A stretch of DNA of 57,509 nt from Kordia algicida OT-1 (GTDB taxonomy: Bacteria > Bacteroidota > Bacteroidia > Flavobacteriales > Flavobacteriaceae). Each line of letters begins with the position of its first letter. Position 1 is the first letter of the stretch. Both the position numbers and the translations under genes were made by a program. This document shows positions 7,844-57,509 of the stretch, piece after piece. The notes below the pieces were generated by a model. That model saw only the letters and a program-made list of their open reading frames with translations, was not told where the DNA came from and searched no databases. The stretch is from NCBI RefSeq assembly GCF_000154725.1, contig NZ_DS544873.1:853428-910936 (forward strand). Reading direction: 5' to 3'.

Positions 7844-7853
7844 CAACTAAACT

Positions 7854-32350: not shown

Positions 32351-32476
32351 ATACAATCATGATGAAGTGTTTTACTTACAGACGATTACAAACGTTACAA
32401 TGCGAGATAAATAGATACAAACTAAGTGACAAAATAAATTAGGGTAACTTGCGCCATCTACACAAGAAGAAGACGT

Positions 32477-34420
32477 TTGATGGTCTACACACGATATTTA
32501 AGACAAACGCCGTGGTTGCCTTTATACCACGATGCCAATTCAATTCAGTTTGTGGATACCGCAACGTATCCAAACGTTCAAATTGGAGATTATGCCATTC
32601 AAAGACACTTCGATAATTATGATTTATTTGGTGATGGTTCTGTTTTACAAGACATCAGTAACACATCTAACACAAACCCAGCGGCAAAAGTACTAGAGCG
32701 CGATCGTAACGATTACAAATTTAAACTAGCAGGACTTTTTTATGGTGAGTATAAAATCATTGATGGTTTACGATTCAGAGCTACCTTAGGAGGTGATTAC
32801 CAAAACACATTTAGAAATAGATGGCAAGGTGTTCGATCTAACAGAAATGGTGCTTCGGCAGCAAGTTATTTTGAATCTAACGAAAACAGAATTCACACAC
32901 TATCAGAAGGATATTTTACATACGATAAAGCTTTTGGTGAGCATACGTTCAATGTAGTTCTTGGAGCATCAGCTGAAAAGTGGGAATGGCAAGGAGACAG
33001 CGCACTCGGATCTGGTTATACATCAGATTTAGTTCAAACGCTAAGTGCAGCTACTGTTTTAAATGAAATTACCTCATACAAATACGAAGAAGGATTCTCC
33101 TCTTTCTTTGCAAGAGTAAACTATTCTTACGAAGACAAATACTTAGCATCTTTAAGCTTTAGACGCGATGGTAGTTCAATCTTCGGTGTAGATAATAAAT
33201 ATGGTAATTTCCCTTCTGCTTCGGTAGGTTGGGTAGTATCGCAAGAAGATTTCTTGAGTGAAAGCGAATTATTAAGCTCATTGAAACTAAGAGCAAGTTT
33301 CGGAGTTACTGGTAACAAAGATATTGACACAGGAAGCAATCTTACAGATTTATATCCTTCAATATCATTACTTGGAACAGACAATTACAACTCACAAGCA
33401 GCTTTTGTAGCGTTAAACATTGCAAATCCTGAATTACAGTGGGAAAGATTAATAGAATTTAACCCAGGAATCGATTTCGGATTTTTTAACAACAAAATTA
33501 CAGGTTCTGTAGATTACTACACAAGAACGAGTGACCAACTCTTACTATTCAATCCAGTTGCATCTTCAACAGGTTTTTCTGCAGCATTAGAAAACTTAGG
33601 AGAAGTGAGAAACTCAGGAATTGAATTAGAAGTTACTTCAAGAAACGTTTCTACAGAAGATTTCAGATGGGGAACAACATTAATTGCTTCTCACAATAAA
33701 AATGAATTATTAGACTTTGCAGACTCTAACGGACAAATTCAAAATGTAGACAGTAAAAGAGCTGCAGAATGGATCAACCTCGTAGGAAACCCTATTTCAT
33801 CATACTACGGTTGGGTTGTAGATCGTGACATTCCTTTAGAATTTATCAATGATCCATACCATCCAGCTGGTGGACAAGCACAAGACGTATATGTAAAAGA
33901 TTTAAATGGTGACGGACTTATTGATGATGATGACAAAACGATTCTTGGGAATCCTTATCCAGACTTAGTATGGAGTATCACAAACAATTTCAGATACAAA
34001 GATTTCGATCTAAGCTTCATGTTTCAAGGAAGTCATGGTGCTGAAATACGTAACATGGGAGACCAATACTTGTTCAACCACTTTAACAGTGGGCAAGATT
34101 TTAATACGGCTACAACGCCAGACCAAGGTTTCATCAAAGAAAAAATCTTTACAGATGCCATCATTCAGGATGCAAGTTACATTGCACTCCGTAACCTAAC
34201 AATTGGTTACAATCTTCCTGAAGACATCGCTAACAGATTTGGAGCATCATCATTCAGGCTCTATGCAACAGGTCAAAATCTGCTCTATTTTACGGCGAGT
34301 GATTACACAGGTTTCAATCCAGAATCTATCAACGATACAAGTGCAACAACATATGGTTATCAGCGTGCTGGTTCACCAATATTTAGCACAATATCATTAG
34401 GGTTAAACTTACAATTTTAA
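32477..34420 (+). CDS. susC: SusC/RagA TonB-dependent transporter, C-terminal beta-barrel part
   Basis: This 647-residue frame carries the rest of the 22-strand barrel (YLRQTPWLPLYHDAN, RRDGSSIFGVDNKYGNFPSASVGW, SFGVTGN, SVDYYTRTSDQLL) and ends in a typical barrel terminus (ISLGLNLQF). The ATG at 32477 is just the first in frame, not a natural start. Between 32281 and about 32515 the expected SusC protein can be followed in pieces in three frames, with about ten apparent single-base losses, mostly beside homopolymers. If repaired, one gene of about 1015 residues results. Treated here as part two of the same transporter. Confidence 0.85.
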   Translation: MMVYTRYLRQTPWLPLYHDANSIQFVDTATYPNVQIGDYAIQRHFDNYDLFGDGSVLQDISNTSNTNPAAKVLERDRNDYKFKLAGLFYGEYKIIDGLRFRATLGGDYQNTFRNRWQGVRSNRNGASAASYFESNENRIHTLSEGYFTYDKAFGEHTFNVVLGASAEKWEWQGDSALGSGYTSDLVQTLSAATVLNEITSYKYEEGFSSFFARVNYSYEDKYLASLSFRRDGSSIFGVDNKYGNFPSASVGWVVSQEDFLSESELLSSLKLRASFGVTGNKDIDTGSNLTDLYPSISLLGTDNYNSQAAFVALNIANPELQWERLIEFNPGIDFGFFNNKITGSVDYYTRTSDQLLLFNPVASSTGFSAALENLGEVRNSGIELEVTSRNVSTEDFRWGTTLIASHNKNELLDFADSNGQIQNVDSKRAAEWINLVGNPISSYYGWVVDRDIPLEFINDPYHPAGGQAQDVYVKDLNGDGLIDDDDKTILGNPYPDLVWSITNNFRYKDFDLSFMFQGSHGAEIRNMGDQYLFNHFNSGQDFNTATTPDQGFIKEKIFTDAIIQDASYIALRNLTIGYNLPEDIANRFGASSFRLYATGQNLLYFTASDYTGFNPESINDTSATTYGYQRAGSPIFSTISLGLNLQF

Positions 34421-41992: not shown

Positions 41993-43033
41993 ATGAGTAA
42001 AGTAGTCACTTTTGGAGAAATTATGCTTCGTTTAGCACCTCCAGGATTTTTAAGATTTTCTCAAACAAATAGCTTCGACGTCGTATACGGTGGAGGAGAA
42101 TCTAACGTAGCTGTATCACTTGCCAATTATGGAGTAGATGTAGACTTTGTAACGCGTTTGCCTGACAATGATATTGGACATTGTGCCATGATGGAAATGA
42201 GAAAACGCGGCGTTGGTGTCAATAAAATTGTTTGGGGAGGAGATCGTTTAGGAATCTATTTCTTAGAAACTGGAGCCGTAAGTAGAGGAAGCAAAGTTGT
42301 CTATGACAGAGCACATTCTGCTATAGCTGAAATAAAATCAGGAATGATTGATTGGGACGCTGTATTTGAAGGTGTAGAATGGTTTCACTGGACAGGAATT
42401 ACGCCAGCAATATCACAAGGAGCAGCAGATGTTTGCCTAGAAGCAGTAAAAGCAGCAAGTGCCAAAGGAATTACCATTTCTACAGACTTAAACTATAGAG
42501 CAAAACTTTGGAAATATGGTGGAGATCGTGAAGCAATCATGACAGAATTAACGTCGTACTGTGACATCATCTTAGGAAATGAAGAAGACGCAGAAAAACA
42601 CTTCGGAATTCATCCAGAAGGATTAGATGTACACAAACATGGGCATGATGTAAAAGCAGAAGCATTTCTTTCAGTATGTAAGCAAATGATGGAAAAATTC
42701 CCAAGAGCCAAAAAAGTAATTACAACTCTAAGAGGTTCTATATCAGCTTCCCATAACACTTGGGCAGGTGTTTTATATGATGGTTCAACAATGTATGAAA
42801 CACGACAATATCAAATTACAGATATCGTAGACAGAGTAGGTGGTGGAGATTCGTTTATGGGCGGATTAATCTACGGATTGCTAAAATATCCTGAGGATGA
42901 CCAAAATGCGTTAGACTTTGCAGTAGCAGCTTCCTGTTTAAAACATACAATCAAAGGAGATGCAAACCTATCAACTATTGCAGAAGTAGAAAAATTAATG
43001 GGCGGAGATGCCTCAGGAAGAGTCGCTAGATAA
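41993..43033 (+). CDS. kdgK: 2-keto-3-deoxygluconate kinase
   Basis: A 346-residue PfkB-family sugar kinase. The N-terminal GGGESNVAVSLANYG and the PfkB signature DRVGGGDSFMGG with catalytic Asp286 are intact, and STDLNYRAKLW is typical of KDG kinases. It phosphorylates KDG to KDPG with ATP in the cytoplasm. It is followed after 23 bp by the KDPG aldolase gene, so the pair completes the path from alginate to pyruvate and glyceraldehyde-3-phosphate. Operator O2 lies upstream. Confidence 0.9.
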   Translation: MSKVVTFGEIMLRLAPPGFLRFSQTNSFDVVYGGGESNVAVSLANYGVDVDFVTRLPDNDIGHCAMMEMRKRGVGVNKIVWGGDRLGIYFLETGAVSRGSKVVYDRAHSAIAEIKSGMIDWDAVFEGVEWFHWTGITPAISQGAADVCLEAVKAASAKGITISTDLNYRAKLWKYGGDREAIMTELTSYCDIILGNEEDAEKHFGIHPEGLDVHKHGHDVKAEAFLSVCKQMMEKFPRAKKVITTLRGSISASHNTWAGVLYDGSTMYETRQYQITDIVDRVGGGDSFMGGLIYGLLKYPEDDQNALDFAVAASCLKHTIKGDANLSTIAEVEKLMGGDASGRVAR

Positions 43034-43056
43034 AAAGCACAAAATAAAATACACAA

Positions 43057-43725
43057 ATGGCACAATTTTCAAGAATAGAAGTAGCACAAGTAATGAAAGA
43101 AACCGGATTAGTTCCGCTATTTTTCAATGACAATATAGAAATAAGCAAAAAAGTTCTCAAAGCCTGTTACGATGGTGGCGCTCGATTGTTAGAATTTACA
43201 GCACGTGGCGATTTCGCTCACGAAGTTTTTGGTGAATTGACAAAATATGCGGTTGCAGAACTTCCCGGAATGATTATGGGAGTTGGCTCTGTAACAGACG
43301 CCGCCGCTGCTTCAATATATATGTCACTTGGTGCTAATTTTATTGTAACACCAGTATTGCGAGAAGATATTGCGGTTGTGTGTAATAGAAGAAAAGTACT
43401 ATGGTCACCAGGTTGCGGTTCGTTAACAGAAATTACAAAAGCAGAAGAACTAGGTTGTGAAATTGTAAAACTATTCCCAGGCGGAATTTACGGACCTAAT
43501 TTTATCAAAGCTATTAAAGGTCCGCAACCTTGGACAAGTATTATGCCAACAGGTGGAGTTGCTCCAACACAAGAAAACTTAGAAGGTTGGTTTAATGCTG
43601 GTGCCACATGCGTCGGAATGGGCTCAAAACTCATTAAAAAAGAGGCAAATGGCGAATATGACCTAGAAAAAATAAAAAACACAACACAAAATGCACTTCA
43701 GATAATAAAAGCAGTACGATCATGA
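43057..43725 (+). CDS. eda: KDPG aldolase (2-keto-3-deoxy-6-phosphogluconate aldolase)
   Basis: A 222-residue TIM-barrel class I aldolase. The Schiff-base Lys138 is in CEIVKLFPGG; the catalytic Glu is probably that in LLEFTARG, and the phosphate-binding segment is IMPTGGVAPT. It splits KDPG into pyruvate and glyceraldehyde-3-phosphate. It follows kdgK and overlaps the next gene by four bases (ATGA), suggesting translational coupling with a regulator-like protein. Confidence 0.9.
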   Translation: MAQFSRIEVAQVMKETGLVPLFFNDNIEISKKVLKACYDGGARLLEFTARGDFAHEVFGELTKYAVAELPGMIMGVGSVTDAAAASIYMSLGANFIVTPVLREDIAVVCNRRKVLWSPGCGSLTEITKAEELGCEIVKLFPGGIYGPNFIKAIKGPQPWTSIMPTGGVAPTQENLEGWFNAGATCVGMGSKLIKKEANGEYDLEKIKNTTQNALQIIKAVRS

Positions 43726-44258
43726 ATACCCCAGAATCTGCCATCACACTAAAAGAATTATCACAACTCTCAGGATTTTCAATCTCTACGGTGTCAAAAG
43801 CGTTAAATGATAAATTTGACATCAGTCCTACGACACGCAAAATGATAAAAAAAATAGCTGTAAAGTATAATTACGTACCTAATAATTATGCAGTTGCTTT
43901 ACGAAAAAAACAAACCAAAGCCATTGCGATTATCATTCCACGAATCAATACCACATTTTACAGCTGTTTTTTGCATAATATAGAAAAAGTAGCTTCAAAA
44001 TACGGATACCGTATAGTGTTGTTTCAATCGTTTGCAGAAACAAAACGAGAAAAAGAATGTTTAAAAAACATCAATGATGGCAGTGTTGATGGTGTAATTA
44101 TGCTCTCTACTAATGCATACAAAGAAACGATCAGTGTAAAAGAAAATATACTTCCTGTAGAGCACATTGAAGTATCTGAAACGCTACAAAATGACAAATT
44201 CTTCAAAGAAAAATCAATTTCAGGGTTTAAAAATTTATTACAAAGAATAAGTGCTTAA
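43722..44258 (+). CDS. Short LacI-family protein lacking most of the effector domain
   Basis: A 178-residue protein overlapping the eda stop by four bases. Residues about 8-60 are a good LacI helix-turn-helix (LKELSQLSGFSISTVSKALN, YNYVPNNYAVALRKKQTKAI), and about 60-150 the first part of the periplasmic-binding-like domain (IAIIIPRINTTFYS, DGVIMLSTNAY). Then the homology ends, about 160 residues short of the usual 335-345. The last 30 residues (DKFFKEKSISGFKNLLQRIS) are not LacI-like. No continuation was noticed downstream. It could be a decayed repressor or a deliberate short DNA-binding protein, perhaps dimerising through the remaining subdomain. Confidence 0.75.
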   Translation: MNTPESAITLKELSQLSGFSISTVSKALNDKFDISPTTRKMIKKIAVKYNYVPNNYAVALRKKQTKAIAIIIPRINTTFYSCFLHNIEKVASKYGYRIVLFQSFAETKREKECLKNINDGSVDGVIMLSTNAYKETISVKENILPVEHIEVSETLQNDKFFKEKSISGFKNLLQRISA

Positions 44259-44799: not shown

Positions 44800-45366
44800 A
44801 TGTCTTTTTCGCAAAATGACGGAATAAAAGTAGCGACCCAACCAGTCAAAAGAAAATTAACTGTACCTTCCAAAAATCGTAATTGGTTTGTTCTCTATAC
44901 AGCTCCTAGAGCAGAAAAGAAAGCAAAGCTGGAACTCGAATATCGAGGATATGAGGTATTTCTTCCAATGACTAAATCATTAAGAATATGGAAAAATCGT
45001 CAAAAAAAGCTTATTGATTCCGTACTCTTTCCAAGCTACATTTTTGTTAAAACTGACGAACGGTATCTTGCTGAAATATGCAGGATTAATAAAATTGCAA
45101 CTTATATACATTGCGGAGGCAAACCCTGTAAGGTTTCTCCTGAATGTATTGAAGCAATTAAATGTATGCTAAGTATGGATCAAGAAATTTCCGTTGGAAA
45201 TGATTTCATAGAAGGTGAATCAGTCCGGATCGTAGAAGGTCCACTTGCGGGTTACAATGGCGTACTTGTTCAGCAAAAGTCAAAAACAAAATTCGGGATA
45301 CATCTGAAAGAGATAAATCAGGTGGCTTCCATAGAAATATGCACGAGTGCATTAGAAAAATTCTAA
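44800..45366 (+). CDS. NusG-paralogue transcription antiterminator (UpxY/RfaH/LoaP-like)
   Basis: A 188-residue protein. Residues about 25-130 form the NGN domain (NWFVLYTAPRAEKKAKLELE, GYEVFLPMTKSLRIWKNRQK, LFPSYIFVKTD) and about 140-185 the KOW domain (GESVRIVEGPLAGYNGVLV). It has the shape of specialised NusG paralogues that bind RNA polymerase and prevent early termination over long surface-polysaccharide or polyketide operons (UpxY in Bacteroides, RfaH, LoaP). It is the first gene of the locus, 164 bp before a 10.6-kb synthase gene, exactly the length of transcript for which processive antitermination helps. Role inferred from family and position. Confidence 0.85.
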   Translation: MSFSQNDGIKVATQPVKRKLTVPSKNRNWFVLYTAPRAEKKAKLELEYRGYEVFLPMTKSLRIWKNRQKKLIDSVLFPSYIFVKTDERYLAEICRINKIATYIHCGGKPCKVSPECIEAIKCMLSMDQEISVGNDFIEGESVRIVEGPLAGYNGVLVQQKSKTKFGIHLKEINQVASIEICTSALEKF

Positions 45367-45530: not shown

Positions 45531-48500
45531 ATGAATCAAAAAGAAAAATTACTAGAAACTACAGAATCGTATTTGTGTTCACTAATTTCTGATGTAGCAG
45601 ATTTGCCAATCACAACTAATGATGCATCAACTCCTTTTTTAGAACTGGGGATTGACTCATTTCGTGTATTGCAAATCATAAAGAAGCTAGAAGAAGACTT
45701 TGGAACACTACCAAAAACACTGTTGTTTGAAAACTTTAATATTAGTGACCTTAGCAACTACTTTGTGGAAACCTATGCATCTATATTGACCGCTAAATTT
45801 TCCAATACAGGAAACGCCAAAAAAATAGTTGTGAAAAAAGCGAAATCTCCAGAAGTAAAAAAACAAACTAAAACACCACAAAAACCAGTAAGGGTTCAAG
45901 AGGAGAAAAAAATAAGCGCACCGCAAAAAGTAGTGGAAGCTACACCAACAAAAAAAATTGTAAAAAAGCAAACACTCATTCGAAGACCAATCATCATCTC
46001 AGAAAAAGAGTTGATGACACACAAAGACTTAAAAGACTGGTATTTATCCATCTTTGAAGAACACAAAAATGAAAGTTCTACCTCAAGAGGAACACGAAAT
46101 ATAGCACCATTACTATTCATTGGAAGCGAACGAAAAGGATATCTAAACTACAGCAAAAGTGGAAACATCATATTAGTATACGCGTATACAGGACCACGAT
46201 CGTACCTAACTACAATTGCCGAAGAAATCACACAATACTGTGAAGACAATGGTTTTGAAATCACCATCTTATCCGATCATGCAATCGAATCCATCAACGA
46301 CACAGCATTCTACGCAACACCTTTTGGTGTCATTTCTAGGGTTGAAAACATGCAAAAATTTTCGCTAAGCGGAAGTAAAATGCGTCGTTTGCGTTATCAA
46401 GTTTCAAAATTTGAAAAAACGGGTGACTGTAAAACGGTTGAATACACCAACGGAACCGACAAAAAAACAGACAAAGAAATTGTTCGATTGATCGATGAAT
46501 GGTCTGCCGCAAGAACCATGGTAAATCCGTTGATTCATATCGTAAGAGAAGAAATCCTCAAAGGAAAACTAAACAAAGAACACCGATTATTTCTAACATA
46601 TTTAGATGACAAGCTCCAAAACGCAATTCTAATCTCAAAACTATCAGACGAACTAAATGGCTATCTGATGGATTTAGAATTCTATCCAACAGACATGCCA
46701 CTTGGCGGATTGGAATACGGAATCGTGAAAATGATGGAAGCCTTGGCGAGCGAAGGTTCAAACATGCTCAGTCTTGGAGGAACCTACGGTTGTAAAATAG
46801 AAGAATCTCAAAATGCAGATCCTGAACTAGAAAAAACACTCGATTTCCTTCGCGAAAGCAAAATCTTTAATGATGAAGGAAACCTGCAATTCAAAAACAA
46901 ATTCCGACCAAAACATCAAACAATATTTATCTGTAGACCACAAGCAATCAGTAATGCCGACAATGTAACCGACATTATCATGATGATTGCCGATCCTTCA
47001 AAAGCAGATGCTGAAGCTACAACAAAAAGCACCTACGAACAACTTACGATCAAGATGTCAGTATCGGCAGAGAAGGACACAAAAGAAGAAAAAACTACAG
47101 AAAACAACCTGCAAAACGAACCTACAACAACAGTTCAAGTCACTACAGACGAAACTGTAATGATTGAAGGCAATGAATACTCGCAACTATTGGCAGCACA
47201 CGGATACAATCCGTTAAACATTCCAAATGCCGACGTAACACACGATCTTAAAACAGATTCTTGGGCACAATTGGACTCAAAAGCCATTGACGCGCAACTC
47301 AATTTTCTATACTCACAAATATACAAGGCAACCGACATTTCAAAAAGTCTGCAAACGGTTTTTCCGTTTACAAATGTTGCGCTCACTACTTCTGGACGAG
47401 ATGCCGAAAAAGTATTCTTCCAATCGTGGGACAACAAAGGAATTGTATTGCAAAACCTACTATTTCCAACAGCGATATACAGTGAAATTCAAAATGGTTT
47501 CACACCAAGAGAAATTCCAAGTAACGAAGTATTTGATCTCAACTCAGAAGTGCGTTTCAAAGCAAATCTTCACTGGGAACAATTAGTCTCTTTAGTTGAA
47601 AAAGAACACGAATCGCTCGCTTTTGTAGCTATCGAAATTTCTAACAATGCCGCTGGCGGCGCTCCAATATCCATTGCACATCTTACAAAAGTCAAAGAAC
47701 TACTCAAAAATTACAACATTCCATTAATAATGGATGGTACGCGTGTATTAGAAAACGCCAAATTTGTCATTGAAAATGAAAAAGAATATGCAGGCAAAAC
47801 CATTTGGGAAGTTGCTCAAAAAATCTATTCATTTGCAGATGCAGTTTGGGCAAGCTTACCAAAAGATTTTTGCGTAAACAAAGGTGGAATCGTTGCTACA
47901 AATGACGAAAACCTATTTCATAAAGTACAAGATGCCATTGAAGATGAAGGTGTAGGACTAGACATCATCGACAAAAAACTCATCGCGACTTCTTTCGAAA
48001 ACAAACAAGTCATTGAAAAACGCATTACCAACCGAATGGAATGTGTACAAATCATTCACAAAGCATTAAAAAATCAGGGAATTCCTGTAATCAATCCAGT
48101 AGGAACACATTGCGTACTCATAGACGTAAAACAAATTCCTCAATTCAAAAACTTCAAAAATCCAGCAATATCTTTCACGGCTTGGTTATACGTAAATACG
48201 GGAATTCGCGGAAGTGTACACAATGCAGGAATGCAAAGCAATTCGGCAATCAACGAAGTCGTACGCTTGGCAATTCACGTTGGAATGGAAACGAACGAAG
48301 CTACTGAAATCAGTCAAAAATTAGTACAACTGTTTCAACAAATGGAAAACATTCCTGAGCTTGAAACAAAAGGAACTCCAGAAACATTTGGAACCATAAA
48401 TGCCAAATATCAACTAAAACAATTCCACAACCCAACTAATACAATTGTTGCTGTTAATGACGTTGAAGTGTCGGAAGACGTTACTGAGTTTGCTTCTACC

Positions 48501-51500
48501 GCTTCCGCAGAAAGTACAAACGAAGCAACCATTTCAGCATCACAACAACAGCCAGCAAAAAATACAAACTACAAACATCAAGACATTGCCATCGTGGGAA
48601 TGTCGGGAAGATATCCAAAAGCAAAAAACCTAGACAAACTTTGGGAAAACCTTCTAGCAGGAAAAGACTGTGTCGAAGTGATTCCAGAAGAACGATTAGC
48701 ACAACGAAAAAATACCAAATTCACAAAAAAATACCGTGGAGGTTTTCTTGAAGACGTAGACAAATTTGATTCTATGTTCTTCAACATTCCGCCAGCAGTA
48801 GCAGAAATGTTTGATCCGCAAGAGCGATTACTGCTAGAAACGGCTTGGGAATCAATAGAAGATGCAGGTTACTATCCTGAAATCCTCACACCAGAAAACA
48901 CACCAAAAAACATTGGAGTCTTTGTAGGTGCCGTTTGGACAATGTATCAAATGATTGGCGCCGAAGAAAAATTAGTTGGTCACGATACCAATCCAAACTC
49001 ATTCCTGTGGAGTGTTGCCAACCGAATTTCATACTGTCTCAACCTTTCAGGACCAAGTATGTCGGTTGATACAGCGTGTTCATCAAGTATGACAGCTTTA
49101 TACTTGGCATGCGAATCTATCTACAATGGAGAATGCTCAGGTGCAATTGTTGGTGGTGTAAACTTAGACTTACATCAAAGTAAATTTGACATCAATTCCT
49201 TTGGAGGTGCACTCTCACCAGATGGCGTTTGTCGTACATTCGGGAAAGGAGCCAACGGATATGTTGCTGGAGAAGGTGTAGGAACCATCTTCATCAAACC
49301 ATTAGCACAAGCAGAAAAAGATGGCGACAACATCCACGGAATCATCAAAAGTGTATCGGTAAATCATGGTGGTCGTACAAGTGGTTACATGGTGCCAGAT
49401 CCAAAAGCACAAGCTAATTTGGTAGTAACAGCTTTAGAAAAAGCAGACATTGATGCAAGAAGTGTTGGTTACATAGAAGCTCATGGAACAGGAACAGAAT
49501 TAGGAGATCCAATAGAAATCTCAGGACTCAAAAGAGCCTTTGACAAATATGATGTTGCCAACCAAACCGTAGCAGTTGGTTCGGTAAAAACAAACATTGG
49601 TCACTTAGAAGCTGCGGCTGGAGTTGTAGGAATTCACAAAGTACTCTTGCAAATGAAGCACAAAAAACTCGTGCCTTCATTGCACTCCACAGAACTCAAT
49701 GAATTCATTGACTTTGAAAATTCTCCATTCTACGTAGAACAACAAGTAGAAGAATGGAAACCAAAAATAATAGATGGTGAAGAATTTCCGCTTCGTGCGG
49801 GAATCAGCTCGTTTGGAGCAGGTGGCGCAAATGCACACGTTATCATCGAATCATACGAACGAAAAGAAACTACTGTAGCAGAAGAAGGATATCAAATATT
49901 TCCACTATCTGCGGTAAAAAAGGACAGACTCAACGCTGCTGCAGAACGTTTACTAAACTTCTTAAAAGATGATGGAAACAAAGAAATAAGTCTTGTAAAC
50001 ATTGGACATACGCTTCGAGTTGGAAAAAAATCCTTTGAGCACAGACTCATCATCATTGCAGAAACCAAAGAAGAACTCATTGAAAAACTCACACTTTTCA
50101 TTGAAGATAAAAAAGATCAAAATATCCTTACTGGAGTTGTTGAAAAAGTAGGAAACATTGCCAAACTACTCAACAAAAACGAAAAGAAAGCCTTCATAGA
50201 ACTCATTGCAGAAAGTGGCGATCTTCACAAAGTAGGTCAGCTTTGGATTGAAGGAATCATCAACGATTGGCAAGCAATTGCAAGCGACAGTGATGCCAAA
50301 AGAGTTTCCTTGCCAACCTATCCATTTGCAGACAAACGCCATTGGGTTGAAAGAACGGACAACGAAGCTGTTGTTGGAGTTTCAAGCATCAATCATCCAA
50401 TGATTGACGCCAACGAATCTACTTTTGAGCGTCAACTATTCAAAAAGACATTTCACGATCAAGAATTCTTCATTTATGACCATTTAGTATCAGACATTCC
50501 TACATTGCCAGGAGTTGCTTACTTAGACTTTGCTCGAAAAGCAGGAGAATTGGCGGCAGGAAGAAAAGTAAAAGCCATCAAAAATATCATTTGGCTAAAT
50601 CCGATTACGGTAAACGATTCCCAACCAACAGATGTTTGGATTGAATTACTTCCGCAAGCAGGACAAATTGTAAAATTTGAAGTATTTAGTAAAAACGAAG
50701 CAGGCGACAAGCAATTACACTCGCAAGGAAAACTAACCTACGTTGAAGCAGAGGAAGTAGAAGCTGCAACTGAATTTATAGACGTAAAAGGAATTCAAGA
50801 ACGTTGTGCAAAAGTAGCAAATGGCGACCAAGCTTATCCAGAATTCCACAAACTAGGTTTAGGATTAGGACCAAGTTTCCAAGTATTGCAAGAAGTCTAC
50901 AAAAATGATGACGAAATGCTGGGAATCATGAAAGTACCAGACGTTTGTGAAAATGAATTCAAAGATTACCTATTGCATCCTTCGTTACTTGATGGCGCAG
51001 GACAAACGGTAATGGCAGCACACTTACTTTCGGCAAGTGAAGAATCATCCGAAGGATTATTTGTACCATATTCGTTTGGAGAAGTTGAAATATTTCATCC
51101 GTTAGTAGAAAACTGTTACAGTTACATTCAAAAAGTAGACGAACCAAATTCAAATCTATCAAAAGCCAATCTGACGATCACAGATGAAAATGGTAAAGTA
51201 TTGGTGAAAATCAAAGATTCTGTTGGAATTCCATTAACAGATATCCATGAAAAACCAGCAGACATACCAACAACAGGAGAAGCAACTGAAGTAGACGAAT
51301 TTACAGACTTATATTACACACATATTTGGGAAGCATCTTCTGTAACGAAAAATGCAAAAGAACTAGATACAAGCAAAAGTATTGTTGTATTTGATACGGA
51401 TGAAAAACTATTCAATAGTTACAAAAAGGATACAAAAACACCTGTCATATTAGTACAACAAGGAAAAGCGTTCCAAAAAGTTTCTGACAATCAATTCACG

Positions 51501-54500
51501 ATCAATCCAGAAAACAAAGAAGACTTTAACCAACTATTCACATCCTTACAAGAACAAGGAATTGGTTTGGATAAAATCTGTTACGGTTGGTCAAAAGATA
51601 CCTTCAAAGAAGATGAAAAATCATTAGATAACGCATTAAAAACTGGAGTATACGCGTTTTTATATGTGTGTCAGGCAGTAATGCAGTTAAAATCTGAGAA
51701 CAACATTTCAATTGCTTATTTCTATCACGGAGCTGAAAATGATGCACAACCACACAACGCAGCGATCAACGGTTTTGCAAAAAGTTTACACTTAGAACAA
51801 TCGAGCATTAGTTGTAAAACAATTGAAATACTAGAAGTAGAAGACAGCTCAAAAATTGCAGAACTTGTCATTGCAGAACTACAAGAAGACACTGTAGAAG
51901 AATTGGCAGTTCGGTACGAAGGCGAAGAACGTTTCGTTAGAAAACTACAAAATATCGCAAATTGGCGTAAAAATAATACTTCCAACAACAAACAAGGTAT
52001 CAAAGAAAAAGGAGTCTATCTCATTACAGGTGGCGCTGGCGGCTTAGGATTTATCTTTGCAGAATATCTTGCAAAAGAATGCAAAGCACGATTGGTATTG
52101 ACAGGAAGATCAAAACTTTCAGAAGAAAAATCAGCCAAAATAGCAATACTAGAAGAATTGGGAGCAGAAGTATTATATGTAGCTTCTGATGTTTCCAAAC
52201 TAAAAGATGTCAAAAAAGTCATCGCAGCAACCAAAAAGAAATTTGGTGCGATCAATGGAATTCTACACAGTGCAGGAGTCTTGCGCGATTCCAACATTCG
52301 CAACAAAACCATAGAAGAAATGCAAGCGGTATTTGCGCCAAAAATATACGGAGCTTATTACCTTGATACGTTAACAAAAGATACAGAACTAGACTTTTTC
52401 GTAACATTCTCCTCAATGGCAGCCGTTGGAGGAAACATGGGACAAAGTGATTACTCGTACGCCAACCACTTCATGGATACGTATGTTAAACGTAGAGAAG
52501 CATTGCAAGAAAAAGGACTACGATCAGGAAAATCACTCAGTTTAAACTGGTCAATTTGGGCAAATGGTGGAATGAAGCTAGATGCACAAATGGAAGCTTT
52601 CTTCAAAAATAGCTTAGGAATTCGTCCATTAAAATCTGAAATAGGAATTGGCACATTCACTCGCGGATTATTTGCAGAAGAAACACAAGTAGTTGTGGTG
52701 GAAGGTATGCAAGAGCGAATGGAAATTGCTTGGGGAATTCGTGAAAAAGAAGAAGAACCACAAACAGCAACAGGAAATGAAGCATCAACAAACGTTGCTA
52801 CAACAGATGAAGCTAGTGGGGAAATTACAGGATTAGTCCGCCAAGATTTGATACAAATTGTAATGGACTTCCTAAAATTAGAAGAAGAAGATGTTGCGGT
52901 AGACAAAATACTACTTGACATTGGTTTTGACTCTATCGGACTCGCTTCGTATGCCAATGCGCTAAATGAAAAATACGGTTTAGACGTCATTACACCTGTA
53001 TTATTCTTTGAATATCCATCTATCAACGAAATCACTAAATATTTAGTAAAAGACCATAGCGGAGCCGTTGCAAACACTTACAACTTGGCAGGCGGAAGCG
53101 CACCAGCTCAGGCAACTACTACAGCCCAAACTACTCCTGTAAAAGAAACAAAAGCGGAAACACCAGCATTTGCAGGAATCAACAAAGGTTGGAATGTAGA
53201 TACTTCACAACCGCAAGCCGTGAATAACGCAACAGGCACAGGACTTTCTGTAGATTCTCGCTTTATTGACTGTCCGATTGCGATTGTTGGAATTGGTGGT
53301 GTGATGCCGAAATCGAAAAACATGCAGGAATACTGGGAAAATCTGAAAAATGAAGAAAATATGATTTCAGTAGTTCCAAGAGATCGTTGGATTTGGGAAG
53401 ATTACGATGGTGATCCAATCACAGAAAAAAATAAAACAAACTCTAAATACGGTGGATTCATTGATGATGCCGATAAATTTGACCCTCTATTTTTTGGAAT
53501 CTCTCCAAGGGAAGCCGAAATGATGGATCCGCAACAGCGCGTATTCCTAGAAACTGTTTGGAATACTATTGAAGATTCTGGCTATAAGGTATCTGACCTA
53601 TCTGGAACAAAAACAGGACTCTTTGTCGGTGTTGCGGTTCATGATTATAGTGATTTGATGAATACGCTCAATGTAGAACTTGATGGCTATACAGCTTCAG
53701 GAAATTCACACTGTATCTTAGCAAATCGTATCTCATTCTTACTCAACTTACGAGGACCAAGCGCACCAATTGATACGGCATGTTCAAGTTCATTAATTGC
53801 GATTCACCGTGCAATAGAATCTATCCATACGGGAAGTAGCGACATGGCAATTGTTGGTGGAGTACAATTAATGATGACACCAGCCGCACATATTTCTTTC
53901 GGAATGGCAGGAATGTTAAGTAGCGATGGAAAATGTAAAACCTTTGACAAAGATGCCAACGGATATGTGCGTGGAGAAGGTTCGGGAGCAATATTCTTAA
54001 AACCACTAGCGCAAGCGGAAGCTGACAACGATCAAATTTATGCAGTTATCAAATCTACTTCAGAAAATCACGGTGGAAAAGCAACCATGCTAACGGCACC
54101 AAATCCGCATGCACAAGCAGAATTATTAGTGGAAGCGTATGAAAAAGGAAATATCGATCCAGCATCAGTTGGGTACATAGAATGTCACGGAACAGGAACA
54201 AGTTTAGGTGATCCGATTGAAATCAGAGCCTTAGCAAAATGCTTCAAAGAACTATACGGTAAGCACAATAAGCCAATTCCAGAAACACCACACATTGGAC
54301 TAAGTTCTGTAAAAACCAATATTGGTCACTTAGAAACGGCTGCGGGAATCTCAAGTTTCTTAAAAGCAGTATTGGCAATAAAACACAAGCAAATTCCAGC
54401 GTGTTTACACTTTAATGAACTCAATCCCCATATCAGTTTTGCAGGAACGCCTTTCTACGTAGTTGATGAAACCAAACCTTGGGAAAGAATAAAAGGAGCA

Positions 54501-56099
54501 GATGGAAAAGAATATCCACGCAGAGCAGGAATCAGTTCTTTCGGATTTGGAGGATCAAACGCGCATGTCGTGATTGAAGAATACATTCCTAAAAAAGAAG
54601 AAAAACCAGTAGAATTTAAAAAGCCATTCCTATTTGTGCTTTCTGCTAAAAATGAAGACAGACTCAAAGCGTATGCAAGCAATATGCTGCAATTTGTAGA
54701 AAACAATGAAATCAGTCTGCTCAACCTAACATACACAACACAAGTCGGTAGAGACGAAATGAAACAACGTCTTGGAATCGCTGTAAATACAGTTGATGAA
54801 CTCAAACAATTATTGACAGATTACATCAACGACAAAGACGTAGAAAATCTTTACACGGGGAAAGTCAACAAGAAAAATAAGGAAATAGTCATTCCAACAA
54901 GCGCAGAAGTTGATGCATTTATTTCAGCATATAACCATGAAGAACTCTTAAAAGCTTGGGTCGTTGGAGCTGAGGTAACTTGGAATAAAATTTACGGAAC
55001 TCAAAAGCCAAAAAGAGAAAACATTCCAACCTATCCTTTTGCCAGAGAAAGTTATTGGTTTGACTTTGATGAGTCAAATACAAGCGGACAAGCTACAGCA
55101 AAACTGATGCATCCGTTATTGCACACAAATACTTCGGTATTAAAGCAGCAAGCGTACAGTTCAGTTTTTAATAAAAATGAATTTTTCTTATCCGAAGATG
55201 AAAATTCTACAGAAAAAGTTCTATCAATTGGGGCATTCTTAGAAATGGCAAATACCGCAGTAACACATGCAACCACAAATTCCCTTGATTTTAAAGCAGT
55301 AGCATTTAGAAACCTTCAATGGTTTAGTGCTTTCAACATTGCAGATGAAAAATCAATCTCTTTAGCACTGCGAGAAGAAAACGAAAATACTGTCGGTTTT
55401 GAAGCATTCAGCAAGGAAGACGATCAAGAAAATGTACACTTTGAGGGAATGGCACGACTTGATGTGATGACAAAATCCAAACAAATTGATATTGAGGTGC
55501 TTCAAAAGCAATTGGAAGATACTACAGCAACAAGCGAAGATTTTTTCAACACATTCAGACAACAAGGATTAAATGGATATACATATCCAAAAATTCAGCA
55601 AATTCATACGGGACACAAACAAATGTTGCTCAAAGTTGTCTTATCGGATGATCTGAAAAAAGATGCTTCAAAATACACCATTCATCCAGCAATGATCGAA
55701 GTAGCCTTGCATGCATCTGGTTTTATGATTGAACCAGATTATTACACAGAAAGTGCTCCACAACCAATAAAGTTAGAGCAACTCACGGTATTAGCACCAT
55801 GCGAAGATGAAATGTCTATTTGGGTTCGTCATGCGAGAAACAGCAAACATAACGATGAAGAAATCGTATTAGATATTTATTTGCTAAACAGCAATGGTCA
55901 AATATGTATCTCGCTCAAATCATTGGTGTTTATGAATGAAGAATACAAACTGTACAACACACCAGAATCAATAGAATTTGAACAATATCTTGAATCCTTT
56001 TACAACATTACCTCCAATGGTTCCACAAAAAAATCATCGGATGATATTGCAGAAGAATTCAAAAAACTATTAGGGAAAGACTTCGATAAGCTTTCGTAA
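45531..56099 (+). CDS. AT-less (trans-AT) polyketide synthase with GNAT-like and PLP-lyase domains
   Basis: A 3522-residue megasynthase from ATG 45531 (a TTG nine bases earlier is possible). Domains: ACP1 about 1-85 (Ser43 in GIDSF); K/P-rich linker; DUF2156/GNAT-like about 160-475 (MDLEFYP, LSLGGTYG); PLP-dependent beta-eliminating-lyase domain about 545-945 resembling tryptophanase (NNAAGGAP; Asp735; PLP Lys778 in SLPKDFCVNKGG; carboxylate-binding Arg893 in NTGIRG); KS1 about 1015-1447 (Cys1183, His1318, His1358); DH about 1625-1915 (His1651, Asp1821, LGLGPSF); KR to about 2390 (LITGGAGGLG, Ser2295, Tyr2308); ACP2 (Ser2468); KS2 about 2575-3020 (Cys2751, His2886, His2933); C-terminal DH-like domain without catalytic His and with Glu3390 for Asp. 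No AT domain or GHSxG motif was found, so acyl units must be loaded in trans. The last module has no ACP and must continue on another protein. Product unknown; sulfur insertion is a hypothesis. Confidence 0.88.
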   Translation: MNQKEKLLETTESYLCSLISDVADLPITTNDASTPFLELGIDSFRVLQIIKKLEEDFGTLPKTLLFENFNISDLSNYFVETYASILTAKFSNTGNAKKIVVKKAKSPEVKKQTKTPQKPVRVQEEKKISAPQKVVEATPTKKIVKKQTLIRRPIIISEKELMTHKDLKDWYLSIFEEHKNESSTSRGTRNIAPLLFIGSERKGYLNYSKSGNIILVYAYTGPRSYLTTIAEEITQYCEDNGFEITILSDHAIESINDTAFYATPFGVISRVENMQKFSLSGSKMRRLRYQVSKFEKTGDCKTVEYTNGTDKKTDKEIVRLIDEWSAARTMVNPLIHIVREEILKGKLNKEHRLFLTYLDDKLQNAILISKLSDELNGYLMDLEFYPTDMPLGGLEYGIVKMMEALASEGSNMLSLGGTYGCKIEESQNADPELEKTLDFLRESKIFNDEGNLQFKNKFRPKHQTIFICRPQAISNADNVTDIIMMIADPSKADAEATTKSTYEQLTIKMSVSAEKDTKEEKTTENNLQNEPTTTVQVTTDETVMIEGNEYSQLLAAHGYNPLNIPNADVTHDLKTDSWAQLDSKAIDAQLNFLYSQIYKATDISKSLQTVFPFTNVALTTSGRDAEKVFFQSWDNKGIVLQNLLFPTAIYSEIQNGFTPREIPSNEVFDLNSEVRFKANLHWEQLVSLVEKEHESLAFVAIEISNNAAGGAPISIAHLTKVKELLKNYNIPLIMDGTRVLENAKFVIENEKEYAGKTIWEVAQKIYSFADAVWASLPKDFCVNKGGIVATNDENLFHKVQDAIEDEGVGLDIIDKKLIATSFENKQVIEKRITNRMECVQIIHKALKNQGIPVINPVGTHCVLIDVKQIPQFKNFKNPAISFTAWLYVNTGIRGSVHNAGMQSNSAINEVVRLAIHVGMETNEATEISQKLVQLFQQMENIPELETKGTPETFGTINAKYQLKQFHNPTNTIVAVNDVEVSEDVTEFASTASAESTNEATISASQQQPAKNTNYKHQDIAIVGMSGRYPKAKNLDKLWENLLAGKDCVEVIPEERLAQRKNTKFTKKYRGGFLEDVDKFDSMFFNIPPAVAEMFDPQERLLLETAWESIEDAGYYPEILTPENTPKNIGVFVGAVWTMYQMIGAEEKLVGHDTNPNSFLWSVANRISYCLNLSGPSMSVDTACSSSMTALYLACESIYNGECSGAIVGGVNLDLHQSKFDINSFGGALSPDGVCRTFGKGANGYVAGEGVGTIFIKPLAQAEKDGDNIHGIIKSVSVNHGGRTSGYMVPDPKAQANLVVTALEKADIDARSVGYIEAHGTGTELGDPIEISGLKRAFDKYDVANQTVAVGSVKTNIGHLEAAAGVVGIHKVLLQMKHKKLVPSLHSTELNEFIDFENSPFYVEQQVEEWKPKIIDGEEFPLRAGISSFGAGGANAHVIIESYERKETTVAEEGYQIFPLSAVKKDRLNAAAERLLNFLKDDGNKEISLVNIGHTLRVGKKSFEHRLIIIAETKEELIEKLTLFIEDKKDQNILTGVVEKVGNIAKLLNKNEKKAFIELIAESGDLHKVGQLWIEGIINDWQAIASDSDAKRVSLPTYPFADKRHWVERTDNEAVVGVSSINHPMIDANESTFERQLFKKTFHDQEFFIYDHLVSDIPTLPGVAYLDFARKAGELAAGRKVKAIKNIIWLNPITVNDSQPTDVWIELLPQAGQIVKFEVFSKNEAGDKQLHSQGKLTYVEAEEVEAATEFIDVKGIQERCAKVANGDQAYPEFHKLGLGLGPSFQVLQEVYKNDDEMLGIMKVPDVCENEFKDYLLHPSLLDGAGQTVMAAHLLSASEESSEGLFVPYSFGEVEIFHPLVENCYSYIQKVDEPNSNLSKANLTITDENGKVLVKIKDSVGIPLTDIHEKPADIPTTGEATEVDEFTDLYYTHIWEASSVTKNAKELDTSKSIVVFDTDEKLFNSYKKDTKTPVILVQQGKAFQKVSDNQFTINPENKEDFNQLFTSLQEQGIGLDKICYGWSKDTFKEDEKSLDNALKTGVYAFLYVCQAVMQLKSENNISIAYFYHGAENDAQPHNAAINGFAKSLHLEQSSISCKTIEILEVEDSSKIAELVIAELQEDTVEELAVRYEGEERFVRKLQNIANWRKNNTSNNKQGIKEKGVYLITGGAGGLGFIFAEYLAKECKARLVLTGRSKLSEEKSAKIAILEELGAEVLYVASDVSKLKDVKKVIAATKKKFGAINGILHSAGVLRDSNIRNKTIEEMQAVFAPKIYGAYYLDTLTKDTELDFFVTFSSMAAVGGNMGQSDYSYANHFMDTYVKRREALQEKGLRSGKSLSLNWSIWANGGMKLDAQMEAFFKNSLGIRPLKSEIGIGTFTRGLFAEETQVVVVEGMQERMEIAWGIREKEEEPQTATGNEASTNVATTDEASGEITGLVRQDLIQIVMDFLKLEEEDVAVDKILLDIGFDSIGLASYANALNEKYGLDVITPVLFFEYPSINEITKYLVKDHSGAVANTYNLAGGSAPAQATTTAQTTPVKETKAETPAFAGINKGWNVDTSQPQAVNNATGTGLSVDSRFIDCPIAIVGIGGVMPKSKNMQEYWENLKNEENMISVVPRDRWIWEDYDGDPITEKNKTNSKYGGFIDDADKFDPLFFGISPREAEMMDPQQRVFLETVWNTIEDSGYKVSDLSGTKTGLFVGVAVHDYSDLMNTLNVELDGYTASGNSHCILANRISFLLNLRGPSAPIDTACSSSLIAIHRAIESIHTGSSDMAIVGGVQLMMTPAAHISFGMAGMLSSDGKCKTFDKDANGYVRGEGSGAIFLKPLAQAEADNDQIYAVIKSTSENHGGKATMLTAPNPHAQAELLVEAYEKGNIDPASVGYIECHGTGTSLGDPIEIRALAKCFKELYGKHNKPIPETPHIGLSSVKTNIGHLETAAGISSFLKAVLAIKHKQIPACLHFNELNPHISFAGTPFYVVDETKPWERIKGADGKEYPRRAGISSFGFGGSNAHVVIEEYIPKKEEKPVEFKKPFLFVLSAKNEDRLKAYASNMLQFVENNEISLLNLTYTTQVGRDEMKQRLGIAVNTVDELKQLLTDYINDKDVENLYTGKVNKKNKEIVIPTSAEVDAFISAYNHEELLKAWVVGAEVTWNKIYGTQKPKRENIPTYPFARESYWFDFDESNTSGQATAKLMHPLLHTNTSVLKQQAYSSVFNKNEFFLSEDENSTEKVLSIGAFLEMANTAVTHATTNSLDFKAVAFRNLQWFSAFNIADEKSISLALREENENTVGFEAFSKEDDQENVHFEGMARLDVMTKSKQIDIEVLQKQLEDTTATSEDFFNTFRQQGLNGYTYPKIQQIHTGHKQMLLKVVLSDDLKKDASKYTIHPAMIEVALHASGFMIEPDYYTESAPQPIKLEQLTVLAPCEDEMSIWVRHARNSKHNDEEIVLDIYLLNSNGQICISLKSLVFMNEEYKLYNTPESIEFEQYLESFYNITSNGSTKKSSDDIAEEFKKLLGKDFDKLS

Positions 56100-56139: not shown

Positions 56140-57509
56140 ATGATAAAATCATTTTTCTCCATAACCGTGTGTTTCTTACTATTTGCACACGTAAGTTTTA
56201 GTCAAACGCCAATACCTGAAAAGAAAAAGGATACGATTAAAAAACAACAAGGCGGAATCAATTTAGACATGTTGGATGGCGATATGTTCGATACAGGAAC
56301 AGAAGAAGTTACGGTTGTAGAGAACAATCTTGACGAAGTAGAAACCAAAAAATCATTCTGGAAAGAATACGTATTCAGTCCATCACGATTAGGCGCAAGT
56401 TATGAATTCACCTATAACTTTACAGATCCAACGGAAGTCATCAAAAACAGATTTGCCTTTCGGATAGAATACTCAAAATTTCTATTCAACAATCTATTTG
56501 TTCAATTAGATACAAAATCGTTCATTTTTATGGATGGCGACAGTCGAAGTAGAGAATTGACCTATTTCAACAATGATGATTTTGAACGCGCAAATGTAGG
56601 ATTTGGATCAATTACACGAAACGCATTCATACAGTACAGTTACAAACAAAGTAGCTTCAAAGTTGGTATACAAACCTTAGCTTGGGGAGAATCTGATTTT
56701 GCTGCGGTAACTGATGAAATCAATCCGTTTGACTTTCGAGATCCGTTAAACCTAAATATTGACGAATTGCGCGTTGGACAATTTATGGTTGGACTCAACT
56801 TTTACACATCCATCGGAAACTTTAGTAGTTTCTTTGTGCCAAACGCAAAATTCAACCTATTTCCTAAAGAAGGAACACGATTTTTTGAAGATCCTTTTGC
56901 AGGAACCGACATTGTAACACAAGAAGTTGATGATGGCAAAAACTCCATCGAATACGGATTTCGTTGGAAAAAAGCCTTCGAAAAAAGTGATGTAAGCTTA
57001 ATAGTAACGAGTTTAATAGATAACAATCTCGCACAAGAACAAGTAAATCCAAACCTAGTATTGCTCAGAGAAAAACGATTTACTACGGTTGGAATGAGTT
57101 TTAACTATGCAATCGGGAATCTATTAATTAGAGGAGAAAATGCCATAAAATTTCCACGAACGTTTAACACAGCTTCTTTAGAACTTATAGAACGCAATGC
57201 ATTTGATACTTCTTTAGGTTTTGAATACGGATTAAATAGTACAACAACCTTTACGCTCGAACTCGTAAACAATCACGTGATCGATTGGACAGAAGACATC
57301 GTTGGAGTTCCTAGAAACAACTTTACAGCATTCTTTGTCGTCGTAAAAGAACTGATGAAAAATAACTTGTCGCTGAATTACATTACCATGTACAACGGAC
57401 CAAATACGACATTTTTTAATTTGCTCTCAGGCGCGTACAAACTCAACGATAACATGACGCTTTCGCTAGATGCAATCATACCCATAACAAATGACGAGCA
57501 AAGTGCTTT
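56140..57509 (+). CDS. Outer-membrane beta-barrel protein (DUF1302-like), 3' end outside window
   Basis: An open frame from ATG 56140 reaches the window end without a stop (456 residues seen). It has a Sec signal peptide (LFAHVSFSQ), a K-rich and acidic stretch, then alternating beta-strand sequence from about residue 80. The segments QTLAWGESDF, ITRNAFIQYSYKQ and NPFDFRDPLNLNIDELRVGQ resemble DUF1302-type barrel proteins, which are often encoded beside RND/MMPL exporters. It is 40 bp after the synthase stop, so it is probably in the same operon and might take part in export or surface display of the product. The family call is from memory of the motif and is moderate. Confidence 0.65.
   Translation, partial: MIKSFFSITVCFLLFAHVSFSQTPIPEKKKDTIKKQQGGINLDMLDGDMFDTGTEEVTVVENNLDEVETKKSFWKEYVFSPSRLGASYEFTYNFTDPTEVIKNRFAFRIEYSKFLFNNLFVQLDTKSFIFMDGDSRSRELTYFNNDDFERANVGFGSITRNAFIQYSYKQSSFKVGIQTLAWGESDFAAVTDEINPFDFRDPLNLNIDELRVGQFMVGLNFYTSIGNFSSFFVPNAKFNLFPKEGTRFFEDPFAGTDIVTQEVDDGKNSIEYGFRWKKAFEKSDVSLIVTSLIDNNLAQEQVNPNLVLLREKRFTTVGMSFNYAIGNLLIRGENAIKFPRTFNTASLELIERNAFDTSLGFEYGLNSTTTFTLELVNNHVIDWTEDIVGVPRNNFTAFFVVVKELMKNNLSLNYITMYNGPNTTFFNLLSGAYKLNDNMTLSLDAIIPITNDEQSA

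Follow-up and report, generated by a model that had tools for sequence, protein, structure and literature searches.

A stretch of 57,509 nucleotides of the Kordia algicida OT-1 genome (the window; positions 853,428-910,936 of a single 5.03-Mb contig) was analysed with regard to the gene PKS_G, which encodes a trans-acyltransferase (trans-AT) polyketide synthase (PKS) beginning with an acyl carrier protein (ACP) domain, a DUF2156/GNAT-like domain (DUF) and a pyridoxal phosphate (PLP)-dependent lyase domain (SH), together covering window 45531-48404 (Table 1). What the analysis itself shows is the identity and subfamily of the domains, the conservation of catalytic residues, which modules are split, and the clade to which the receiving ketosynthase (KS) belongs. 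In an earlier sequence-only reading this block had been described as the start of the PKS and as a possible leinamycin-type sulfur insertion unit. The block itself is real and is supported far beyond chance by Pfam and NCBIfam: PP-binding was matched with 2.3e-12 (residues 1-95 searched alone), LPG_synthase_C (the former DUF2156, a name that also stands in the title of PDB entry 5vrv) at residues 194-468 (1e-15), Beta_elim_lyase at residues 601-868 (3e-25) and the tryptophanase model PRK13238 at residues 544-952 (2.8e-60; 204 bits, below the cut-off of 285). It forms the start of the gene but not of the assembly line; a loading-type start lies on another protein, PKS_A.

The subfamily of the SH domain was determined with a tree including tryptophanase (TnaA) and tyrosine phenol-lyase (TPL), which together with the Pfam search had been proposed as a check in the sequence-only reading. 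Short rows were removed beforehand (L095, L125, L126 and L131 of SH; L026, L033, L034 and L039 of TnaA), and the tree of 111 rows is unrooted, the intended outgroup, threonine aldolase L181 of the same genome, having dropped out after failing to match the SH model. One branch with a support of 100 splits 82 SH rows from 29 TnaA/TPL rows, and the PKS_G lyase falls in the SH clade, within a group of 54 rows (support 88; 52 rows with support 98 without the odd loci L109 and L119). Beside this Kordia-type group stand 28 leinamycin-type rows including PDB entry 9cen, titled 'thiocysteine lyase (SH) domain from guangnanmycin A biosynthetic pathway', with L139 among them placed loosely. The same entry was the best PDB sequence match (9cen_A, 3.9e-50; best TPL 6.5e-44, best tryptophanase 1.9e-32) and the top Foldseek match of the AlphaFold2 (AF2) model, which has a predicted local distance difference test (pLDDT) score of 93.6 (template modelling (TM) score 0.87, with TPL chains close behind at 0.84-0.87). 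A literature search on this entry yielded no title that describes the structure. TIGR02618 scored 161 bits against a cut-off of 721. DUF and SH align collinearly with the didomains of leinamycin type (35-39% identity); among 80 matching plasmid records a collinear full-length DUF-SH was present in four, and LnmK-family genes are annotated in all three annotated ones. By its sequence the PKS_G lyase is thus a member of the leinamycin SH (thiocysteine lyase) group, as had been suspected, and membership in the tryptophanase/TPL group was ruled out by the tree split, Pro777 and His897.

The tryptophanase/TPL-like landmarks named in the sequence-only reading are present in PKS_G, and its assignment of the two central PLP residues holds: Lys778 is conserved in 82/82 SH and 29/29 TnaA/TPL rows, Asp735 in 82/82 and 28/29. 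Its choice of Arg893 as the substrate-carboxylate residue had to be revised. Although Arg893 is kept in 80 of the 82 SH rows, TPL Arg404, the substrate-carboxylate residue of that enzyme, aligns onto Arg912 (R in 82/82), and TPL Arg381 onto His897 (H in 82/82). The residue preceding the PLP lysine, rightly read as Pro, is K in all 29 TnaA/TPL rows and never K in the 82 SH rows, where A (34), S (26), T (12), P (6), G (2) and C (2) stand instead; the lack of this Lys is therefore a mark of the whole SH group and no oddity of PKS_G. In the Kordia-type group the position is held by A (34), T (10) and P (6) of 54, in the leinamycin type by S (26/28). Positions specific to SH (at least 95% in SH, rare in TnaA/TPL) are Leu593, Pro646, Glu702, Phe780, Cys861, His897 and Gly918.

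In order to survey the arrangements in which DUF-SH occurs, Genome Taxonomy Database (GTDB) genomes were scanned; of 174 pattern stretches and 100 relatives, 80 were kept, to which four plasmid loci were added. The resulting 84 loci were annotated by means of hidden Markov models (HMMs) built from the Kordia cluster and counted by script. DUF-SH is followed by a KS on the same protein in 52 loci (the Kordia arrangement; ACP on a separate frame in five and cut off in one), while 30 loci show ACP-ACP-DUF-SH, 29 of them of leinamycin type and one (L109) continuing with ACP-ACP; L119 and L139 have another arrangement or are cut. The Kordia-type clade extends over Bacteroidota, Pseudomonadota, Acidobacteriota and Fibrobacterota. 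Within the genus, 4/11 genomes carry it, K. algicida OT-1 included, and among 299 sampled genomes of the family a DUF-SH match was found in K. algicida OT-1 only. The query matched in 29 of these 299, but all matches in other genomes start at residue 382 or later, in the SH part, in open frames of 361-496 aa, which were interpreted as free-standing tryptophanase-type proteins. L109 and L119 (genomes G709 and G710) have a third arrangement, KS-DH-DH-KR-ACP(-ACP)-DUF-SH-ACP-ACP, in which the DUF-SH module contains reducing domains (DH, dehydratase; KR, ketoreductase); both genomes harbour two strong DUF copies, which in G709 lie inside one open frame of 17,277 aa.

The remaining PKS proteins are encoded within 75 kb downstream of the block, the cluster continuing to about 983 kb. 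PKS_A to PKS_F lie downstream, and PKS_A begins with an AprA MT2-like domain, a sub-threshold GNAT match (18.7 bits against the Pfam cut-off of 20.7; 0.0022) and an ACP, followed by modules. PKS_H, located between PKS_G and PKS_A with a GTG start at 912,896, has the order ACP-KS-ACP-TE (TE, thioesterase), its KS lacking the HGTG motif. The C-terminal KS of PKS_F has no ACP behind it, and PKS_G opens with one; in the same way PKS_G stops after KS-DH, and an ACP stands at the beginning of PKS_H. The order A-B-C-D-E-F-G-H closes all split modules and places DUF-SH mid-chain. From this domain order the mid-chain place of DUF-SH appears to follow, and because PKS_F ends in a KS without ACP and a loading-type start lies on PKS_A, the block completes a split internal module. 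Of the two possibilities left by the sequence-only reading, delivery of the chain by an upstream synthase is therefore supported and a novel loading module is not. In related clusters the PKS nearest the 3-hydroxy-3-methylglutaryl synthase (HMGS) gene, the likely donor, ends in KS-DH instead of KS (Aquimarina atlantica, Fulvivirga, Lysobacter enzymogenes and Massilia); in the Lysobacteraceae 2PB cluster it ends in KS. Downstream of PKS_F, genes for HMGS, two enoyl-CoA hydratases (ECH), two acyltransferases (AT), an ACP, a free-standing KS and a metallo-beta-lactamase (MBL)-fold hydrolase were found. The last was considered as a persulfide enzyme and rejected, its best model being SolJ, a PKS-cluster hydrolase (257 bits, below the cut-off of 350). 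A class III aminotransferase gene lies between PKS_G and the TE protein (genome positions 911168-912877; L060:3058-4764) and occurs also in the A. atlantica, Aq78 and Lysobacteraceae 2PB clusters; none was found in the stretches from L. enzymogenes, Massilia, Marinicella and Fulvivirga.

The KS that receives the chain after DUF-SH was compared with other KSs (256 rows extracted, of which 57 follow SH; 117 rows in a FastTree run, 86 in an IQ-TREE run). All 25 KSs following DUF-SH in the 117-row tree form one clade with a support of 100, which was repeated with IQ-TREE (13/13, SH-aLRT 100) and which in both runs stands apart from KSs after ECH branching modules. Since the clade of a trans-AT KS usually reflects the end of the chain that it receives, the post-SH clade fits one shared chemistry passed on by DUF-SH; descent of the entire protein from one ancestor would produce the same pattern. 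The ten leinamycin module-8 KSs group together (100, IQ-TREE). A specific sister relationship between these and the C-terminal KS of PKS_F (KS_F) was discarded: the FastTree fork (support 82) was not repeated in IQ-TREE, where KS_F is closest to a Lysobacteraceae counterpart and to KSs of the KS2 type, and only then to module 8. The 50 single ACP rows preceding DUF likewise form one group (99; three clusters counted twice, 83 columns). Their mean identity was 37% with the L109/L119 ACPs, 29% with the second and 22% with the first leinamycin ACP, 24% with other ACPs from the examined clusters and 19% with ACPs carrying the Trp flag. Trp was present at the flag position in 0/48 single ACPs before DUF-SH (one per locus, L119 and L139 included). 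From this ACP comparison, the Kordia-type module probably lacks beta-branching.

HMGS (PF08540) was detected in 50/50 DUF-SH genomes searched (of 58 intended) as compared to 15 of 199 genomes of the family (K. algicida OT-1 included), a background of ordinary family members and not of trans-AT PKS genomes; in 28 of the 50 it lies on the DUF-SH contig, 1.1-118 kb away. This co-occurrence shows the type of cluster and was not accepted as proof of branching on the DUF-SH module, because the Kordia cluster contains three other ACP sets with the Trp flag for HMGS. A match to LnmK was not obtained in the K. algicida OT-1 genome in a search run without positive control.

The predicted model of the DUF shows a tandem-GNAT fold, the nearest folds being MprF (15-18% identity), Sbb17 and FemX, and the motif FKxKFxP is common to the DUF and transferases of the MprF/FemX type. 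The DUF would thus share its fold with the C-terminal domain of MprF/LPG synthase and with FemX, from which it differs in its ACP-linked context. The match of this predicted fold to aminoacyl-tRNA-dependent transferases is new here, and it makes the role of the DUF testable. We know of no tRNA dependence of the DUF. A search for the DUF in 395 genomes of the order returned matches in seven, the Kordia one and six others in frames of 860-896 aa with 21-25% identity, which are read as MprF from their sequences. As the E. coli enzyme CARS has been reported to yield tRNA-bound cysteine persulfide in vitro (PMC5660078), it is conceivable but decidedly unlikely that the DUF is a tRNA-dependent sulfur loader, which like its nearest folds would bind an aminoacyl-tRNA, in this case a cysteinyl- or cysteine-persulfide-charged one, and would present its sulfur to the ACP-bound chain before the SH cut. 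SH needs a free carboxylate, so that the tRNA ester would first have to be removed; if the idea were true, a polyketide synthase would take sulfur from the translation pool.

With respect to sulfur supply, A. atlantica and Aquimarina Aq78 carry, between the PKS genes and HMGS, genes for two cysteine desulfurases, one SufS-like and one NifS-like (neither reaching its NCBIfam cut-off), an S-adenosylmethionine (SAM) methyltransferase and a C_GCAxxG_C_C protein. The SufS-like gene was present in 11 of 25 DUF-SH genomes searched (11/17 Bacteroidota, 0/8 Pseudomonadota) and starts 1.5-3.3 kb from the HMGS start in 10/10 genomes with both places known. No match to the set was found in the examined stretches of K. 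zhangzhouensis, Fulvivirga imtechensis, Marinicella, Massilia and two Lysobacteraceae. SufS-like desulfurase genes beside the cluster HMGS gene in Bacteroidota are new here, and a literature search by title yielded no paper on such a set in these clusters. The cluster-encoded desulfurases of Aquimarina, Fulvivirga and Chitinophaga suggest a possible origin of the sulfur; for Streptomyces, cystathionine gamma-lyase has been proposed as the source of thiocysteine (PMC8479088). A trans-AT cluster for cuniculene has been reported in Aquimarina strains including Aq78 and A. muelleri, and in strain RHTr2 (PMC9323603, PMC9860996). The genomes of all three carry the same DUF-SH protein; in these drafts the only close trans-AT match (47-50%) adjoins HMGS on a contig other than the DUF-SH contig. 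By analogy with A. atlantica, where DUF-SH, HMGS and trans-AT lie on one contig, cuniculene is probably made by a DUF-SH line.

We consider it likely that the block supplies the second half of a trans-AT PKS module that is internal, is split between two proteins and inserts sulfur mid-chain by means of DUF and SH. The KS at the C-terminus of PKS_F would extend the chain onto the N-terminal ACP of PKS_G, where the DUF with its tandem-GNAT fold would hold both the chain on the ACP and a donor of cysteine type, with L-thiocysteine (CysSSH) as the most likely candidate, and catalyse their conjugate addition. SH would bind the amino-acid end of the adduct as PLP aldimine and cleave the cysteine Cbeta-S bond with release of pyruvate and ammonia, so that the chain would keep -SSH (or -SH), and KS1 of PKS_G would carry the sulfur-bearing chain through at least two further modules to PKS_H, ending in the thioesterase. 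C-S cleavage and persulfide formation by the PKS_G SH domain are inferred from the SH domains of GnmT, LnmJ and WsmR; that the proteins hand over the chain in this order is postulated here, as are the role of the DUF, the nature of the donor and the origin of the Michael acceptor. Several points weigh against this proposal. Its support consists of sequences and predicted models, and the hand-over from PKS_F to PKS_G is taken from colinearity. Neither KR nor DH is found between KS_F and ACP, which leaves the electrophile unexplained. The desulfurase set had no match in the Kordia cluster, to which the search in this genome was confined, and the sulfur donor must therefore come from elsewhere. 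Finally, cuniculene would trouble the sulfur-insertion proposal if it turned out to be free of sulfur.

Two variants of this chemistry have to be weighed. It is rather unlikely that SH is a plain cysteine lyase, with the DUF adding free cysteine and SH leaving a thiol and not a persulfide. The Kordia-type clade does mostly differ from the leinamycin type at the residue before the PLP lysine, but to our knowledge no residue separates cysteine from thiocysteine use, which counts against this variant. Leinamycin-type SH domains also cleave the cysteine adduct in vitro, although with an efficiency 50- to 106-fold lower, the thiocysteine adduct being preferred by all three assayed domains (PMC8479088). 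There is likewise a modest chance that the HMGS cassette first builds a beta-branch and that sulfur adds to the branched carbon as in leinamycin, which would be compatible with mid-chain insertion. The HMGS counts given above and the lack of KR and DH between KS and ACP, as in leinamycin module 8, are in line with branching; on the other hand, HMGS has the three other Trp-flagged ACP sets to serve, the KS after SH stands outside the post-ECH clade, LnmK was not matched in the search run without positive control, and the ACP is single, without Trp flag and nearer to the second than to the branching first leinamycin ACP, with the reservation that leinamycin-type ACPs also lack the flag (PMC7618002).

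The remaining two explanations concern the nature of the block. That the PLP domain is a relic or catalyses another PLP reaction such as transamination or decarboxylation is very improbable. The TPL residues assisting protonation are indeed changed (Arg381 to His897, and the Lys before the PLP lysine to Pro), but His897 and the absence of that Lys are likewise features of the leinamycin-type rows, including the guangnanmycin SH, and Lys778, Asp735 and Arg912 are invariant over the 82 rows. A loading module of the type ACP-DUF-SH that starts the chain would suit the position of the block at the protein N-terminus before the first KS, but this reading was rejected by domain order and is given next to no weight: the MT2/GNAT-type start with its own ACP lies on PKS_A, PKS_F would be left ending in a KS without ACP, and DUF-SH of the leinamycin family sits in the last module (PMC7618002).

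Table 1. Features of PKS_G, its neighbourhood and related clusters (window positions unless stated otherwise)
Feature	Position	Strand	Description and evidence
PKS_G	45531..56099	+	3522 aa; ACP-DUF-SH-KS-DH-KR-ACP-KS-DH-like end; ORF call, translation, Pfam, HMMs built from Kordia cluster
ACP	45555..45785	+	residues about 9-85; LGIDS serine; Trp flag absent; Pfam PP-binding, motif, ACP tree
DUF domain (LPG_synthase_C/DUF2156)	46098..46964	+	residues 190-478; predicted tandem-GNAT fold
SH domain, PLP-dependent (thio)cysteine lyase by subfamily	47151..48404	+	residues 541-958; Pfam, NCBIfam, tree, AF2, Foldseek
Asp735, pyridine-N aspartate	47733..47735	+	alignment
Lys778, PLP Schiff-base lysine	47862..47864	+	preceded by Pro777; alignment
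Arg912	48264..48266	+	aligned to TPL Arg404
KS1	48636..49940	+	residues 1036-1470; next after ACP-DUF-SH; member of exclusive post-SH KS clade
DH-KR-ACP of following module	50373..53060	+	Pfam, Kordia-cluster HMMs
KS2 and C-terminal DH-like domain without ACP	53274..55937	+	Pfam, Kordia-cluster HMMs; ACP at N-terminus of PKS_H, beyond window
UpxY-family NusG-like protein	44800..45366	+	NCBIfam NF033644, 130.4 bits (cut-off 100); directly upstream of PKS_G
DUF1302 protein	56140..57509	+	first gene 3' of PKS_G; cut by window end
Desulfurase set	A. atlantica L176-L177, L193, G668:C10 about 78.8-83.7 kb; Aq78 G670:C21

The UpxY-family NusG paralogue is likely an operon-specific antiterminator, and matches to the DUF1302 protein are present in other DUF-SH clusters too. 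Further upstream, window 5486-43725 contains genes of polysaccharide type: GH3, GH2 and GH43 at 5486-14919, an alginate lyase at 27257-28210, and a 2-keto-3-deoxygluconate (KDG) kinase-like protein with a 2-keto-3-deoxy-6-phosphogluconate (KDPG) aldolase at 41993-43725. A SusC-like receptor at 31373-34420 is possibly split into two ORFs (31373-32350 with carboxypeptidase-regulatory and plug domains, and 32477-34420) and is followed by SusD. At 43722-44258 a LacI-type regulator of 178 aa has its DNA-binding part but an incomplete ligand-binding domain. Outside the window, a weak Beta_elim_lyase match within an open frame of 1250 aa (genome positions 1083758-1084621; L184) is possibly another embedded PLP domain.

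Among known systems, the SH domains of GnmT, LnmJ and WsmR were shown to be thiocysteine lyases converting adducts to hydropersulfides by Meng et al. (2021; PMC8479088), who counted 109 DUF-SH clusters with three further families; for the families other than leinamycin in that 109-protein network, DUF-SH stands in PKSs of other architectures with predicted -SSH installation. An SH profile is included in antiSMASH 7 (PMC10320115). The K. algicida protein A9ECY5, which may be PKS_G itself or an orthologue, was tabulated as CP-DUF2156-PLP3-KS-KR-CP-KS beside LnmJ, together with F8TUA6 of Lysobacter sp. ATCC 53042, by Milano et al. (2013; PMC3870968), whose passages on these proteins give neither the position in the assembly line nor C-S chemistry. 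The arrangement is thus known from 2013, whereas its chemistry was not found described in the literature; a mid-chain position of DUF-SH was not found described either, though Fig. 1c of Meng et al. (PMC8479088) may show one. In comparison with the Kordia cluster, cuniculene-type Aquimarina clusters differ by their desulfurase and SAM methyltransferase genes. With the leinamycin-type DUF-SH proteins LnmJ, GnmT and WsmR, PKS_G shares the order ACP-DUF2156-SH, collinear sequence, the SH clade, the PLP residues and the lack of Lys before the PLP lysine. The leinamycin type has a tandem ACP in a terminal module KS-ACP-ACP-DUF-SH-TE, whereas PKS_G has a single ACP without a second, HMGS-branching one, in an internal split module in which SH is followed by a KS of an exclusive clade and not by a TE. 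In the literature found, the leinamycin family alone is shown to install sulfur by a PKS domain, and it does so at the last module; with its mid-chain step, one ACP and a KS of its own clade, the Kordia type would represent a simpler and possibly portable sulfur module.

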